A stretch of 32,673 nt of DNA. It comes from Geitlerinema sp. PCC 9228 (GTDB lineage: Bacteria; Cyanobacteriota; Cyanobacteriia; Cyanobacteriales; PCC-9228). The notes under the pieces were generated by a model that did not search any database, had not been told where the DNA came from, and saw only the letters and a list, made by a program, of their open reading frames with translations. Location: contig NZ_LNDC01000172.1 in the NCBI RefSeq assembly GCF_001870905.1, positions 1 to 32,673 on the forward strand, in the 5' to 3' direction. Shown piece after piece: positions 123 through 7,034 of this stretch (the first letter of the stretch is position 1; each line of letters opens with the position of its first letter). The position numbers and the translations under genes are program-made.

Positions 123-791
123 CTAATCTTCTGGCGTGGGAGTTGGCGTTGCTGGAGACTCGCCACTGGTAGTATTGGATTCTGCAGAACCATCAGCTTG
201 CCATTGAGAAATTGGTTTTTCTACCGCTTGCTGAAAACTTTTGGGAACCAACAAAACCGTTTTTTGATTGTCCGGCGTCTTTTGCGGGTTTACCTGAGCG
301 TAGAGAAACTGACCGCTAAAATCAGTACCGCCCAAAACCATCTCGTGAAACTCTTTGTTTTGCAAGCGAATTTGCAGCCTTGCTAGTGGTTCGCGCAACC
401 CGTAACTCTCCAACTCCTTTTGCGGACTGCCCATTGGCACCGAGCGATCGCTTTTTTCCGTCGCCAATAAATTTAACAAAAAAGCCACCGCCCCCTCACT
501 AGCTGGTGTTGGATTTTCTGCCAAAGGTTCTATCCCTTCCGGATAGTCAACCACCCGAAGCATCCACTGACTTTCCCCATCGGATTTCTCTCGTCGTCGT
601 AACTGCAACGTGCGATCGGACATAGTAATTTTAACCGAAGCAACCTGGTCCTCGCTAAACCCAAACAACTGTTTTTGCTTTGCCTCCGCCGCCTCCCGTT
701 GGGGAACCACCCTGGTTTCGTACCAAGTCACCACCCCACCAAAAGCCGCAGCTACAATCAGAAGCGCTACTGTAGACCGTCTAATCTTCAT
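123..791 (-). CDS. DUF4340 domain-containing membrane-anchored protein
   Basis: This 222-residue protein has one N-terminal membrane segment (about residues 8-26, ending in VVTWYE). An extracytoplasmic domain of mixed strands follows, with a Thr/Pro/Ser/Glu-rich tail. The layout and position fit the DUF4340 family, which in many bacteria is encoded last in GldG-type ABC operons. The start is the ATG at 791 because a GGGAGGAACC ribosome-binding site lies just before it; an upstream in-frame start at 812 would skip that site. It follows the GldG-like gene by 108 bp on the same strand and is probably the last gene of the four-gene operon. The molecular role is unknown; a periplasmic accessory of the ABC complex is inferred from context. 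Confidence 0.75.
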   Translation of the reverse strand: MKIRRSTVALLIVAAAFGGVVTWYETRVVPQREAAEAKQKQLFGFSEDQVASVKITMSDRTLQLRRREKSDGESQWMLRVVDYPEGIEPLAENPTPASEGAVAFLLNLLATEKSDRSVPMGSPQKELESYGLREPLARLQIRLQNKEFHEMVLGGTDFSGQFLYAQVNPQKTPDNQKTVLLVPKSFQQAVEKPISQWQADGSAESNTTSGESPATPTPTPED

Positions 792-899
792 AGGTTCCTC
801 CCCCAAAACCAAACAAACTTTCTGTATGTCGTTCGTACAAAAACCGCCAACTTACCTAGGATTCAGACTATCTCCCAAACTCCCATGCTTTCTAACCCA

Positions 900-2558
900 T
901 CACCGCCGAACCCACCAAAACAGACCGGAAGCTATAAAGCCAAGTACGGGAAACAATAAAGCCAAAAAGCCTATCAAACGTATATCTTGGGAGTTTAAAT
1001 TGAGACGGCGATTTTCCGGTTTGTTTGGTTGAATCGATAGCAATTGTTCTTCTTGTCGGCTTAACCAACCTATGGCATTGGCAAACAAGTCGCCGTTTAA
1101 GTTTCCAGAAATCAATCCATTGGTGGCAAAATCAGAATCTCCCAATACCACCAATCGCGATTCTGGTTGGGATTTGGGTTCCGAATCTGTTGCTGGCGTT
1201 TCTCCATCTTCTGCATTGGGAGATGGCGATGGTGTTGGCGATGCTTCTGGTGATGGTTCCGGCGATGGTTCGGTTGTGGTGGAATCTTCTGCAATTGATT
1301 CTCCCAAGGGTTTGCTAAAAGCAACTCCCAATACTAACGGACCCCTGATATCTTCTTCGGCATTAAATTCCCAATTGGGTCCTTCATCCATATTTTGTTC
1401 GGCCCAACTTTTGGGACTGGTAAGCAATAATGGGGTATCGTTGACGCCTTCTTGGGGTTCCACTTCCAAGGGACTCGCCAAAACAAAAAAGGTATAATTT
1501 TCGCCAAAGTCTTGGGTGATGGGATGGTTGCCGTAATCGGTAACCACAGGTGCTACAGGACCAAATCCTTGTACCCATTGTGAAGGATCCACCGCCACGC
1601 GATCGCTACGAGAAACTCCCCATTCCGATAAAAATTCCGACAATCCCGCCTCTTGTTGGGGGTCTACTGCGAGGAAAACGCTGCCGCCGTCGTCGAGATA
1701 TTCCTGCAAAGCTTCCAGTTCCGATTCTAGAAAATTCTGTTTCGGTCCCACGATCGCGATCGCAGAGGCATTATCGGGAATTTCCTTGCCACCGGCTAAA
1801 TTCAGGGTTTCTACACTGATGTTGTTGTTTTCCAGCCGCGTAACGGCTTGCGACAAGCCACCATCCCCTTGATTGTTGGGAGAATGTTCCTGGTGACCAA
1901 GGAGAAAATAAACCGTACTTTGCCGACCTCCCACCAATTTGGCGATGCTGCTGGTGAGTTTAGCTTCTTCTAAGGATTCTCGCTTGGTACTTTGTACGAA
2001 CTGGCGTTGGTCGCCATATTCCACGTAAACTTCCCCAAACTCCTCCACACCAAATCGATCGGCGATCGCGGGTTGTTGGATGGGATCGACATACTCGTAT
2101 TGAAAGCCACGATTGGCAAGACGCTGGTAGTTTTCCAACAATTCTTGGTTGTTGGATTTTGGTTGGTCGCTGAAGACCCATACTTTCACCGGTTGGTCTA
2201 GGGAATCTAGCAATTTTTCCGTTTGGGGAGCCAAGGTAAATCGCTGGCTTTCGGTTAAATCGATGGGTTCGCTGTAACGAACGCCGACAAAATTCACCAA
2301 CCCCACAATTGCCACCACCGCTATGGTGGTTAGCAAGGCATTGGTTCCGGCTTCTGCGGAACGGGGAGACCCCCCAGCCAGCAAGGCATCCCCTTGGAAA
2401 ATGAGCCACAATCCCAGAAAAACTGCACCGCCGATCGTCAATCCAACTGCGATCGCATTCCACTCGCCAGATACTGCTTGCATACTCAGACCCGCCGCTA
2501 GCAAAAACAGGCCCAGCAGAAAAATATATTTCCAATAACCCTTAAATGGCTTTTTCAA
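900..2558 (-). CDS. GldG-like ABC transporter auxiliary protein
   Basis: This 552-residue protein has about three membrane segments in the first 110 residues. A large extracytoplasmic domain follows, with stretches such as ESQRFTLAP, VWVFSDQP and LVVLGDSDF that are typical of the GldG / ABC_transp_aux family. There is then a low-complexity Pro/Ser/Glu linker (about residues 425-465) and a final membrane helix ending WWVRR. The start is a TTG at 2558, chosen because AGGAGGT lies 6 nt upstream and the sequence MKKPFKGYWKYIF leads directly into the first helix. It lies 51 bp after the permease gene. GldG proteins act with GldA and GldF in gliding Bacteroidetes; the cyanobacterial relatives have no settled function. 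Confidence 0.8.
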   Translation of the reverse strand: MKKPFKGYWKYIFLLGLFLLAAGLSMQAVSGEWNAIAVGLTIGGAVFLGLWLIFQGDALLAGGSPRSAEAGTNALLTTIAVVAIVGLVNFVGVRYSEPIDLTESQRFTLAPQTEKLLDSLDQPVKVWVFSDQPKSNNQELLENYQRLANRGFQYEYVDPIQQPAIADRFGVEEFGEVYVEYGDQRQFVQSTKRESLEEAKLTSSIAKLVGGRQSTVYFLLGHQEHSPNNQGDGGLSQAVTRLENNNISVETLNLAGGKEIPDNASAIAIVGPKQNFLESELEALQEYLDDGGSVFLAVDPQQEAGLSEFLSEWGVSRSDRVAVDPSQWVQGFGPVAPVVTDYGNHPITQDFGENYTFFVLASPLEVEPQEGVNDTPLLLTSPKSWAEQNMDEGPNWEFNAEEDIRGPLVLGVAFSKPLGESIAEDSTTTEPSPEPSPEASPTPSPSPNAEDGETPATDSEPKSQPESRLVVLGDSDFATNGLISGNLNGDLFANAIGWLSRQEEQLLSIQPNKPENRRLNLNSQDIRLIGFLALLFPVLGFIASGLFWWVRR

Positions 2559-2609
2559 CTTCGCACCTCCTGCTTTGTTTGGGGATTTGGGAATTTGGCT
2601 TGGGGAAAT

Positions 2610-3398
2610 TTAATAGCGTTGGAAGCGGAATGTTTCAATGGATTGTGCGGTTAGGAAAATCCCTAGAAAAATATAGCTGAGAAATAGAACAATACTGCTG
2701 GGGTCGAGAATCCCCTGGGAAATATTTTGGAAATGTTCCACCAGGGATAAATGGCTGAGAATGTTACCTACCGCACCGCTGAGGTTGCCAGCAATAATGT
2801 CTATTACCCACAAAAACAAAACCAAGGCAAAGGTCAAAATCGCCGCCAAAATGGTTTTATCGGTGAGGGAGGAAACAAACATTCCCAAAGACAAAACGCT
2901 GGTTCCTAATAATAACAGTCCCACGTGGCCGGAAACGATTAAAGTAGCACTTAATGGTGGACTGGAAGCGGTTAAAGCCATGACCTCGTAAATAATTAAA
3001 GGCAGTAACATGGTGAGGTAAAAAGTCGCCACTGCCAGCAATTTTCCCAACGCGATCGCCCAATTGGTCAGCGGGGAAGTCGCCAAAAGTTCTAAGGTTC
3101 CCAGCTTTTTCTCCTCGGTATACAAATTCATGGAAAGCATGGGCAATAAAAATAAGGAAAGCGATCCCAAGGTTCCTAAAAACAAACGCAATGCCTCGTA
3201 GGGAACGTCCAAAGGTTCGCTAATCCCCAAGCGATCGCGATAGGCTGCCTGGGCAATAATTCCCTGAGGTCCAAACAAAATACTCAGAAAGAAAAATCCA
3301 GCAATCAACCAAAAAATACCGGCGATGGCATAGGCAAACGGCGAGGCAAAATATCCTTGAAGTTCTTTGCGGTAAATGGCAATAATACTGCTAAACAT
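2610..3398 (-). CDS. ABC-2 type permease, GldF-like
   Basis: This 262-residue integral membrane protein has about six hydrophobic segments. It begins MFSSIIAIYRKELQGYFASP, the amphipathic 'RKEL..YF.SP' opening characteristic of ABC-2 permeases of the NosY/GldF type. A cytoplasmic loop carries TEEKKLGTLELLATSP, the conserved contact region for the ATPase. The length is normal for a half-transporter, which would dimerise. It sits between the ATPase gene (93 bp upstream) and the GldG-like gene (51 bp downstream) on the same strand, so it is almost certainly the membrane partner of both. The substrate is unknown. ATG at 3398 is used; no strong ribosome-binding site is visible. Confidence 0.85.
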   Translation of the reverse strand: MFSSIIAIYRKELQGYFASPFAYAIAGIFWLIAGFFFLSILFGPQGIIAQAAYRDRLGISEPLDVPYEALRLFLGTLGSLSLFLLPMLSMNLYTEEKKLGTLELLATSPLTNWAIALGKLLAVATFYLTMLLPLIIYEVMALTASSPPLSATLIVSGHVGLLLLGTSVLSLGMFVSSLTDKTILAAILTFALVLFLWVIDIIAGNLSGAVGNILSHLSLVEHFQNISQGILDPSSIVLFLSYIFLGIFLTAQSIETFRFQRY

Positions 3399-3491
3399 AG
3401 GTCGTTGTTCGTCTGTAAGTCAATGAATGTTTTGCTGATAGGGTGAGGAGGTGCTGGGGAGGATAGGAGAAGTAATTTCTTACTCTTTTCC

Positions 3492-4484
3492 TCATCCTAG
3501 CTTTTTCTCGCCAACTCCCTTTTCCGAAATCTTATTTTCTTCAGTAGTTAGCTGCAAGAATACATCTTCTAAACTGGCGCGAGTTCGTCGCATCTCGTAC
3601 AAACCAATTTGATGCTTGGCGAGAATCTTGGCAATATCTTTTCCGGGTTCTTTTTCCGAGCGAGCAGTGATGTGGATTCGGCGTCGATTCTTGGCTAATT
3701 CTGGTTCGTCTACAATTTCCACTGACCGTACCCCCGCCACTTGTCGCAGTAAAGCAAGTACAGTTTCCCAGTTGCTGGTTTCTGGTTCCACTTCCAACTC
3801 GTATCCCGAACCCAGCGCTAGTTCCGACATTAGGTTGTCGGGGGTATTGGTGACCACCACTTTGCCTTGGTTAATAATGGTGACTTTTGTGCAAGTGGCG
3901 CTGACTTCCGGTAGGATATGCGTAGATAGGATAATGGTGCGATCGCCCGCTAAATTTTTAATTAAATCGCGCACTTCAATGATTTGGCGTGGGTCCAACC
4001 CCACAGTGGGTTCGTCTAAAATAATCACCGGCGGGTTATGAACGATCGCTTGGGCAACACCGACCCGCTGCCGGTAGCCTTTAGATAGTTTGCGAATCAG
4101 CAAATGGCGTTTGCTTTGTAGGTAGCAGTTTTGGATCGCTGCATCGACCATAGCCGCGCGATCGCCAGCTCTGACGCGCTTAATCCGAGCCACAAAATGC
4201 AAAAACCCTTCCACCGTCATATCCGGATACAAAGGCGGATTTTCCGGCAAATAGCCAATATTTTGACGTACAGCCATGGAATTTTCGTGTACTTCGTAGC
4301 CGGCTATCTTGGCCGTACCGCGGGTGGCTGGCAAATATCCCGCCAAAATCCGCATGGTAGTAGTTTTTCCCGCTCCGTTGGGACCGAGGAATCCCAAAAT
4401 TTCACCAGCTTCCACCGAAAAAGTGACATTTTCGATAGCTGGTGTAGAACCGTAAATTTTACTTAAATTTTCTACTTCAATCAT
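3492..4484 (-). CDS. ABC transporter ATP-binding protein, GldA-like
   Basis: This 330-residue ATPase has Walker A GPNGAGKT (residues 34-41), the signature LSKGYRQRVGVAQA, Walker B VIILDEPTVGLD and a switch His in LSTHILPEV. The divergent LSKGYRQR signature is typical of ATPases paired with ABC-2 permeases, including GldA and NosF. The C-terminal roughly 100 residues form the extra domain common in this group. ATG 4484 is preferred over an upstream in-frame start at 4751 because the family begins MIEVENLSKIYG and AAGGTGAC precedes it; the extra 89 residues look non-coding. It is the first gene of the minus-strand operon and is divergent from the S-layer gene. It would energise the permease encoded next; the substrate is unknown. 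Confidence 0.88.
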   Translation of the reverse strand: MIEVENLSKIYGSTPAIENVTFSVEAGEILGFLGPNGAGKTTTMRILAGYLPATRGTAKIAGYEVHENSMAVRQNIGYLPENPPLYPDMTVEGFLHFVARIKRVRAGDRAAMVDAAIQNCYLQSKRHLLIRKLSKGYRQRVGVAQAIVHNPPVIILDEPTVGLDPRQIIEVRDLIKNLAGDRTIILSTHILPEVSATCTKVTIINQGKVVVTNTPDNLMSELALGSGYELEVEPETSNWETVLALLRQVAGVRSVEIVDEPELAKNRRRIHITARSEKEPGKDIAKILAKHQIGLYEMRRTRASLEDVFLQLTTEENKISEKGVGEKKLG

Positions 4485-4805
4485 GTCACCTTGAGTTAAA
4501 ACGGTTGAAGCTGACTTGGTAGCACTGCCACGGGCAAACCGCCACGATCGTATCAGATACATCAGCAGATCGGATAGGTTGGACCTTTCTACTGATGTTA
4601 CGGTTGGCAGAGAATCCATTCTCAGCAAATTTCCTGAAAAACTTGGTTGGGTAGGATCCCAGCAATGTAGCAACTTCAGCACGCAGAGCTGGGAATATCC
4701 ACCTCCCCAACCACCATTGTACGTTTTTGGAACGCTTGCCAAACCACCCAAGCAAGCGAACGAACCTATTGTCCATATTTTTAGTTAATCGGGGGTTCAT
4801 TGTTT
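4485..4805. other. Divergent intergenic region, 321 bp
   Basis: This gap separates the start of the minus-strand ABC operon from the start of the plus-strand S-layer gene, so promoters for both must lie here. Open frames in it extend the neighbouring genes upstream but have no protein-like composition. A short hairpin GAGAAT-cc-ATTCTC lies near 4609-4622. No convincing -35/-10 pair was found on either strand. Confidence 0.5.
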
Positions 4806-7034
4806 ATGGCTACGCTTTACGTTAATCCCACCAGTGGCAGCGATTCCCAAGATGGATCGCAGGGCGCACCTTTCAAAACCATTAGCAAAGCTCTTTCCCA
4901 AGCCAGTGCCGGAACCACTATCCAACTAGCTACAGGAAATTATACGGCAGACAGTGGCGAAACATTCCCCCTGGAAATTCCCCCTGAGGTGAAAGTCATT
5001 GGCAACGAAAACACCAAAGGAGAAGGCATCACCATCAATGGTTATGGGGAACATGTCGCTTCTACCCTCAGCTTTCGCAACCCCAACATTACCGTTTTAC
5101 CCAAAGATAGAGCGGAATTGCGCGGTGTTACCGTCACCAACACCGGCGATCGCGGTACGGGGGTATGGGTGGAAACCACATCCAGCAGCCAAGAAGTTTC
5201 CCCCACCATCGCCAACAACACCCTGACCAACTCGGTGCGGGAAGGTTTAACAGTCACCGGGCAAGCCAAACCCAAAATTCTTAAAAACAAGTTCCGAAAA
5301 AATCAGGGGAACGGTCTGACCTTCGTAGACAAAGCCAAAGGAGAAGTTAAAGGCAACACCTTTGAAGATACCGGTTCTGGAGTAAACATCGGCGGCGAAG
5401 CAGCTCCTTTCCTAGAAGGCAATCTCATTCGTTCCAATCGGACCGGCATTTTGGTACAAGCCGATGCCCGACCCGTCTTGCGCAACAACGAAATTCTCAA
5501 CAATACCGACAACGGTTTGACGCTAATTTCTAACGCCCTGGTCGATTTGGGTCAGTCTTCCGAACCGGGGAACAATCTATTTCGCGACAACGGCAACTAC
5601 GACCTGGAAAATGGTTCTTCCAATCAGTTGGTATCGGTAGGCAACCAACTCAACCCTGCCAATGTCAAGGGAGACATCGAATTTGCCAGCAGCGACGTTC
5701 CTACCCCCACGCCAGAACCCACACCTTCACCAGAACCTACCCCCTCTCCCACCCCCACACCACCTGCTTCCGAGCAACCTTCTCCAGCGCCTACGCCAGA
5801 ACCTACCCCCTCTCCCACCCCCACACCACCTGCTTCCGAGCAACCTTCTCCAGAGCCTACACCGGCACCTGACGGACAGCTGACGGATATCCAAGGACAT
5901 TGGGCAGAACGGTTCATTCAAGCTATGGTCGATCGAGGGATCGTCAGTGGTTTCCCGGACAATACCTTCAAACCAGAGAGCAACATGACCCGTGCCCAAT
6001 ATGCTGCTATTCTGGCGAAAGCCTTCGATTTGCCTTTGGAAAAAGATGAAATTACCTTTTCCGATGTGAGCAACGATTTCTGGGGCCAAGACGCCATTAC
6101 CAAAGCCACCCGAATGGGCTTTATTTCAGGATTCCCCGATGGTACGTTTCGACCCAATCAAAATTTAACTCGGGTTCAGAGTATTGTATCGTTGGTTAGC
6201 GGTTTGGGGATGAGCGGCGGACCGGAAGATATTTTGGCTTTATACAAAGACCGCGCCCAAATTCCCAGCTACGCCACTGATGAAGTGGCAACTGCCACCG
6301 CCAAACGGATTGTGGTTAATGCCCCCGAAAAACGCGATCGCCTCGACCCCATGCGCGATGTCACCCGCGCCGAACTAGCAGCTTTGACCTATCAAGCCAT
6401 GGTTTCCCAAGGGCAAGCCGACGCCATTGCCTCCGATGCGATCGTCATGTTCTCCGATATTGACGGTCACTGGGCAGAAGACTTCATCCGCGGCATGGCA
6501 AAAAATCCCGACGTTCTCTCCGGCTTTCAAGACGGCACCTTCAAACCCGACGATAAACTCACCCGCGCCCAATTTGCTGCCCTGTTAAACAGCAGCTACA
6601 ACCTAGATGCCATGGTCAAAAACGACCCCACCACCTTTAGCGACGTACCGAAGGACTTTTGGGGCAGCGAAGCCATTCAAAAAGCCTACCGCGCCGCCTT
6701 TCTGTTGGGATATGGAGACGGTACCTTCCGCCCCAACAACACCATCAAAAAAGTAGAAGCGATCGTTTCTCTGGTGAATGGTTTGGGGTTAGAAGCCAAA
6801 AATCCCGACAGCAGCCTGCAAAAACTCAGCGACGCCGATTCCGTTCCTGATTGGGCGCGCGAACCAATCGCGGCAGCAATTGAAAACCAAATTTTGGTCA
6901 ACCATCCCCATCCATCGCAGCTCAATCCCAACCAAGAGGCTACCCGGGCTGAGGTGGTCGCTGTTATGTATCAAATGCGCGTCAACAGCGGTACGGAAGT
7001 TGCCATTAACTCCGACTACATTTTGACCGCCTAA
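4806..7034 (+). CDS. DUF1565 beta-helix protein with six S-layer-homology units
   Basis: This 742-residue protein has three parts. Residues 1 to about 290 resemble DUF1565/right-handed beta-helix proteins, starting MATLYVNPTSGSDSQDGSQG and followed by N/G-rich rungs. Residues about 296-357 are a Pro/Thr/Ser/Glu linker with a 22-residue repeat. From about 358 to the end are six S-layer-homology units in two triplets: units 1, 2, 4 and 5 are clear (for example DIQGHWAERFI with SGFPDNTFKP), while 3 and 6 are degenerate. SLH units in cyanobacteria bind the peptidoglycan layer. There is no signal peptide, and an in-frame TAG at 4782-4784 rules out an N-terminal extension beyond the TTG at 4800. 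I chose ATG 4806; the TTG would add only two residues. Export route and ligand are unknown. Confidence 0.85.
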   Translation: MATLYVNPTSGSDSQDGSQGAPFKTISKALSQASAGTTIQLATGNYTADSGETFPLEIPPEVKVIGNENTKGEGITINGYGEHVASTLSFRNPNITVLPKDRAELRGVTVTNTGDRGTGVWVETTSSSQEVSPTIANNTLTNSVREGLTVTGQAKPKILKNKFRKNQGNGLTFVDKAKGEVKGNTFEDTGSGVNIGGEAAPFLEGNLIRSNRTGILVQADARPVLRNNEILNNTDNGLTLISNALVDLGQSSEPGNNLFRDNGNYDLENGSSNQLVSVGNQLNPANVKGDIEFASSDVPTPTPEPTPSPEPTPSPTPTPPASEQPSPAPTPEPTPSPTPTPPASEQPSPEPTPAPDGQLTDIQGHWAERFIQAMVDRGIVSGFPDNTFKPESNMTRAQYAAILAKAFDLPLEKDEITFSDVSNDFWGQDAITKATRMGFISGFPDGTFRPNQNLTRVQSIVSLVSGLGMSGGPEDILALYKDRAQIPSYATDEVATATAKRIVVNAPEKRDRLDPMRDVTRAELAALTYQAMVSQGQADAIASDAIVMFSDIDGHWAEDFIRGMAKNPDVLSGFQDGTFKPDDKLTRAQFAALLNSSYNLDAMVKNDPTTFSDVPKDFWGSEAIQKAYRAAFLLGYGDGTFRPNNTIKKVEAIVSLVNGLGLEAKNPDSSLQKLSDADSVPDWAREPIAAAIENQILVNHPHPSQLNPNQEATRAEVVAVMYQMRVNSGTEVAINSDYILTA
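5730..5853 (+). repeat. Two-copy 66-bp direct repeat in the Pro-rich linker
   Basis: Bases 5730-5787 recur identically at 5796-5853, a period of 66 bp or 22 residues. Each unit encodes a PEPTPSPTPTPPASEQPSP-type stretch. Near-perfect DNA identity points to recent duplication or slippage rather than old repeats kept by selection on protein alone. Copy number may vary among strains. Confidence 0.85.

Follow-up and report, generated by a model that had tools for sequence, protein, structure and literature searches.

Leaderless DUF1565-SLH proteins form a cyanobacterial clade with an intact wall-binding signature

The locus and its product

The window, a 32,673-nucleotide stretch of the Geitlerinema sp. 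PCC 9228 genome, encodes a protein that combines a DUF1565 domain with SLH units and whose gene lies head-to-head with a cluster of GldA-, GldF- and GldG-like genes and a DUF4340 gene (123-4484, minus strand; Table 1). The products of this cluster are Gld-like only, with scores below the respective equivalog cut-offs (302.8/402.6, 125.3/288.5 and 70/389.85 bits). Pfam membership of the window protein is clear for both DUF1565 (PF07602, 149.5 bits against a cut-off of 20.3, E-value 1.4e-43) and SLH (PF00395, 193.7 bits against 20.8, E-value 3.8e-58). Five SLH stretches pass in Pfam, while an HMM built on this protein's own units identifies six, arranged as two sets of three, in agreement with the two full sets originally predicted. 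A search for plasmid carriage yielded zero matches across 72,556 records.

Table 1 Features at the DUF1565-SLH locus (window coordinates).
Feature	Coordinates	Strand	Basis or remark
DUF4340 protein, last gene of Gld-like cluster	123..812	-	cluster member
GldG-like auxiliary protein (ABC_transp_aux)	900..2558	-	below cut-off
GldF-like ABC-2 permease	2610..3398	-	below cut-off
GldA-like ABC ATPase, divergent neighbour, likely start ATG at 4484	3492..4484	-	below GldA cut-off
In-frame TAG, 7 codons upstream of ATG 4806, closing the frame	4782..4784	+	sequence
Alternative start TTG, two codons 5' of the ATG	4800..4802	+	sequence
Leaderless DUF1565-6xSLH gene	4806..7034	+	742 aa, pI 4.69, no Cys
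DUF1565, right-handed beta-helix, residues 10-285	4833..5660	+	Pfam; AlphaFold strands; fold matches
Pro/Thr/Ser/Glu-rich linker, residues 286-358	5661..5879	+	pLDDT <50 over most
First SLH set, units 1-3, about residues 359-534	5880..6407	+	Pfam and own-unit HMM
Second SLH set, units 4-6, about residues 545-727	6438..6986	+	Pfam and own-unit HMM
C-terminal tail INSDYILTA	7005..7031	+	common to signal-peptide SLH homologues

The 742 amino acid product begins directly with MATLYVNP. Its reading frame is closed by the upstream TAG, and between this codon and the ATG the only other start is the TTG, so that a leader cannot fit before the domain; the N-terminal signal peptide of a Sec-exported SLH protein was not found from either start. 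The original prediction of a protein without room for a leader is thus confirmed at the level of the frame itself.

An AlphaFold model based on seven sequences is of modest quality (mean pLDDT 76.1, pTM 0.44) and places a first strand at residues 3-6, followed by a long right-handed beta-helix, the disordered Pro-rich linker and the SLH helices. Among the 50 fold matches shown, the beta-helix resembles polysaccharide lyases and epimerases such as RbmB, Pel9A and the A-module of the Azotobacter mannuronan epimerase AlgE4. AlgE proteins likewise consist of a leaderless N-terminal beta-helix followed by repeats, which in their case are RTX repeats associated with a type I route, whereas the window protein carries SLH units and no RTX. 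The SLH triads match those of Sap and SpaA in both sequence and fold (TMt 0.74-0.80), and some of these structures were, according to their titles, solved with pyruvylated wall-polymer ligands. Sap and SpaA are Gram-positive S-layer proteins with signal peptides. Membership in the NosD subfamily is not supported: the general NosD profile PF05048 is matched (45.7 bits against a cut-off of 23.6), the subfamily profile TIGR04247 reaches 31.4 bits against a cut-off of 300, and no NosD structures are among the 50 fold matches shown. Residues 2-151 also match the NCBIfam model of the Leptospira LIC10774/LIC10365 surface family (6.4e-29) at 101 bits, below its cut-off of 380; LIC10365 is termed a lipoprotein in PMC11635480.

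Leaderless and signal-peptide homologues

A first sample of 120 different DUF1565 frames, drawn from 201 loci, was classified by eye and by the distance to the upstream stop. Under a strict rule requiring an in-frame stop no more than 20 codons upstream of the domain, 75 of the 120 are leaderless, which bears out the earlier statement that cyanobacterial DUF1565 proteins often begin in this way. Another 27 have a longer upstream reading without a convincing signal peptide, and 18 carry a signal peptide (12 with and 6 without SLH). A wider sample of 164 frames with hand-corrected class labels comprises 121 leaderless SLH proteins and 42 signal-peptide proteins (22 with and 20 without SLH), the one remaining frame, leaderless and without SLH (L321), being left uncounted. 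The only other DUF1565 protein of the window's own genome (L002) shares the beta-helix but carries a signal peptide and lacks SLH. In that genome, the four further SLH proteins identified (L003-L006) have signal-peptide-like N-termini as judged by eye, making the window protein exceptional among the SLH proteins of its genome.

The possibility that a leader is present but was missed, through a wrong start, a frameshift or a sequencing error, has some footing in the 27 longer upstream frames and in an open hydrophobic stretch found in another frame in 6 of the 75 strict rows. These stretches are confined to few rows and none is shared clade-wide, 75 of the 120 frames are closed within 20 codons, and an error creating the TAG, once named as a possible refutation, is ruled out because many relatives are leaderless as well. 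We consider a missed leader highly improbable, and the leaderless state of the window protein is, as far as comparison of sequences goes, genuine.

The leaderless clade spans many families and reaches beyond the order of the window's organism. Six SLH units are found in 63 of its 121 frames and three in 58, compared with three in 22 of 22 signal-peptide SLH frames, and going by these counts the doubled set is normal for the clade. Seven leaderless proteins (L340, L343, L193, L324, L332, L338 and L339) show a further arrangement in which a tandem DUF1565 pair precedes three SLH units.

Phylogenetic analysis of 81 of the 120 DUF1565 domains, after removal of near-copies at 80%, separated proteins with and without a signal peptide by one change, and a branch with an SH-aLRT of 98 sets all 64 leaderless rows apart. 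A second tree of 103 rows included more signal-peptide rows and omitted long-branch rows. Its free search nested the signal-peptide SLH clade within the leaderless rows (two changes, weak support), a topology that the clade test did not favour: when the leaderless rows were constrained to form one group, the likelihood rose 43 log units above that of the free search (p-AU 0.943). Proteins of the L002 type served as the outgroup. The best reading of the first split and the constrained likelihood is therefore that the leader was gained or lost once, the direction depending on the root. Homologues with a clear signal peptide, which the original prediction had named as potentially refuting, do exist, including L002, but they form separate clades and do not mark the window protein as a truncated Sec substrate. 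The signal-peptide DUF1565-3xSLH proteins (for example L341 and L112) share with it the domains and their order, the SLH signature and the C-terminal tail, and differ by the signal peptide, by their uniform three SLH units, by the lack of a Pro-rich linker in the test used and by the absence of Cys in 22 of 22. We take the leaderless DUF1565-SLH clade of cyanobacteria to be old, with the window protein a genuine member of it.

Cysteine content separates the two classes. Counted downstream of the leader, 41 of 42 signal-peptide proteins are Cys-free (22/22 with SLH, 19/20 without), whereas 115 of 121 leaderless SLH proteins contain Cys, 31 of them exactly one; the window protein is among the six without. 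After removal of near-copies, 19/19 and 17/18 signal-peptide proteins with and without SLH, respectively, are Cys-free and 64/68 leaderless proteins are Cys-bearing. On the 103-row tree, Cys changed 55 times within the leaderless part (length 23.8) and never within the signal-peptide part (length 13.6), a split with a chance probability of about 1.5e-11 if Cys changes follow branch length, although the comparison of the clades draws on a small number of evolutionary events affecting the leader. The residues are concentrated in the beta-helix, which holds 144 of the 162 Cys of the leaderless rows; it has 144 in 19,720 amino acids there and 0 in 10,730 in signal-peptide rows, and one column (P143) is Cys in 83 of 102 rows. 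The envelope as such does not exclude Cys, since 2-4 are present in each of four Sec-type SLH proteins from the window's own genome; a TonB receptor and a binding protein encoded in the window have none.

We read this pattern as folding of the leaderless beta-helix in a reducing compartment, unlike its Sec-exported relatives. The contrast is independent evidence of a different fate and argues that the leader is truly absent, and that the compartment in which the helix folds differs. The pattern could equally accompany residence in the cytoplasm. That the clade lost its leader and took on a new role in the cytoplasm, such as binding pyruvylated glycan precursors ahead of their export, perhaps together with the adjacent ABC-2 transporter, is a possible but less probable explanation, in keeping with the way Cys arises and changes freely in the leaderless helix.

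Wall-binding signature, gene neighbourhood and secretion

The SLH signature is nearly invariant in the 121 leaderless rows (W366, R396 and G442 in 121, W426 and R521 in 120), and these wall-binding residues are conserved as strongly as in exported homologues. PMC9388160 names W and TRxE-type motifs as important for wall-polymer binding. From these residues, the window protein is predicted to bind peptidoglycan. Such conservation weighs against a cytoplasmic protein, as do two further features. One leaderless DUF1565-SLH frame among the 121 (L121:850-3693, minus strand) is fused, after its SLH sets, to an N-acetylmuramoyl-L-alanine amidase domain (Amidase_3, 1.3e-42) in which the motifs DPGHGG, SLHLNA and ELGYLTGE can be recognized by eye; fusion to this peptidoglycan hydrolase is most readily understood for a protein at the wall. 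Linkers rich in Pro, which are usual in surface proteins, were recognized in 72 of the 121 leaderless SLH frames, against 0 of 22 with a signal peptide. Together, SLH conservation, the amidase fusion and the linkers favour export. A second leaderless SLH type looks cytosolic in its make-up and leans the other way: in genome G097, beside a leaderless gene (L276/L119), a frame without a visible signal peptide (L180:426-3215, plus strand) joins FAD_oxidored (9.2e-14) to SLH sets, and a similar frame occurs in G086. We know of no cytoplasmic use of SLH in print.

A literature search for DUF1565 gave six papers, one of them with cyanobacteria, and among those listed no treatment of leaderless SLH proteins. 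A DUF1565 protein with three SLH units has been reported from Spirulina vesicles (PMC11635480). Two Limnospira-type genomes (G422 and G423; genus inferred from a phycocyanin identical to 1ha7) each carry one protein of either kind, a leaderless tandem-DUF1565-3xSLH form and a signal-peptide DUF1565-3xSLH form, so the vesicle protein could belong to the tandem-DUF1565 class (803-811 amino acids) or to the signal-peptide class (567-569 amino acids) and was not assigned to one.

The head-to-head Gld-like cluster would suit a cytoplasmic role. In a census of the own genome and 60 relatives, whose fragmented assemblies can hide neighbours, the leaderless gene is present in 29 genomes; 27 of these have the permease, which lies within 5 kb of the gene in 12. 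Near signal-peptide SLH homologues the permease was found in 0 of 10 genomes. Across 58 neighbourhoods, it is always on the opposite strand when near a leaderless gene and is missing at all eight signal-peptide loci. The GldF-like permease is, however, a core gene that 55 of the 60 relatives possess whether or not the leaderless gene is present, and is thus independent of that gene, a point against a joint cytoplasmic function. The association is positional, perhaps reflecting common regulation, and not one of need. An analogy to NosDFY, drawn from the general NosD score and the adjacent ABC-2 set, serves as no more than a lead, given the subfamily score far under its cut-off, the lack of NosD structures among the fold matches shown and a permease that does not depend on the leaderless gene. 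At seven other loci (L264, L267, L268, L290, L297, L299 and L300), the leaderless gene is followed by the same two genes on its strand, which we take to be psb28 and moaB; genes upstream of it in other loci are presumably YtxH-like and DUF948-like.

Type I secretion through ABC, HlyD and TolC components with an uncleaved C-terminal signal, as in HesF and RTX proteins, was also considered. The own genome is rich in RTX, with 156 PF00353 repeat matches in 4.8 Mb, and encodes an HlyD above its family cut-off that adjoins a partly read ABC exporter frame. RTX repeat frames are very many, on C101, C95, C146, C177 and other contigs, and many share similar C-termini of the TEEDFxxxSSL type. RTX C-termini frequently close on acidic-aromatic-hydrophobic motifs (e.g., SNDFIAV) that resemble the tail INSDYILTA of the window protein. 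A precedent is HesF (Alr0267), a cyanobacterial exoprotein of Anabaena that likewise has no identified signal peptide and for which PMC4390845 describes export demonstrated via the TolC-like HgdD; no connection of the window protein to this route emerged.

The tail was rejected as a type I signal by itself, since its motif is common to 12 of 12 signal-peptide SLH homologues tested; by a loose pattern, 11 of 102 leaderless rows lack it, so that a C-terminal signal conserved in and specific to the clade was not found. No RTX family is among the Pfam matches of the window protein, and the RTX frames of the own genome are Cys-poor (none in 19 of 24; 9 Cys in 21,778 amino acids), unlike the leaderless clade. 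With the own-genome HlyD as query, no homologue was found in 58 neighbourhoods, which contain a single ABC frame of more than 480 amino acids. Classical RTX-type secretion of the window protein is thus not supported by its sequence or surroundings, and we regard type I secretion as unlikely; the associated type I genes and C-terminal signal suggested as checks at the outset were not found in the neighbourhoods and rows covered. The lack of a secretion signal and of a neighbouring exporter is also what a cytoplasmic protein would be expected to show.

Proposed fate and significance of the leaderless clade

Our preferred explanation, to which we assign a probability of about one half, is that the window protein reaches the wall by non-Sec export after folding in the cytoplasm. 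It draws on the missing leader, the single clade, the SLH residues, the Cys contrast and the amidase fusion in a relative, with HesF as a precedent for export without a signal peptide. The protein would be made and folded in the cytoplasm, would be exported neither by Sec nor, probably, by classical RTX type I secretion, and may reach the peptidoglycan by vesicles, lysis-like release or a dedicated exporter. At the wall, one or two SLH triads would hold a wall polymer and display the beta-helix, which probably binds or processes polysaccharide. The original prediction posed the choice between a non-Sec route and work inside the cell; this was the right dilemma, and it is narrowed here, not settled.

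A broader and rather doubtful proposal is that cyanobacteria possess a non-Sec, non-RTX route for cytoplasm-folded wall proteins whose cargo includes several leaderless SLH kinds: beta-helix-SLH, beta-helix-SLH-amidase (L121) and perhaps flavoenzyme-SLH (L180). If so, the Gld-like ABC genes lying head-to-head with the leaderless gene would offer a first candidate partner.

An ordinary domain pair is thus found in what appears from sequence to be an unusual state, that is, an old leaderless clade with an intact wall-binding signature and a cytoplasm-like Cys content. The two sister clades share their domains but contrast in leader and Cys content, one being Cys-free behind a signal peptide and the other leaderless and Cys-bearing. 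They provide a natural controlled comparison, sometimes within one genome as in the Limnospira-type strains, that bears on leaderless export from cyanobacteria. Should the leaderless clade instead be cytoplasmic, it would represent a use of SLH without a precedent known to us from print.
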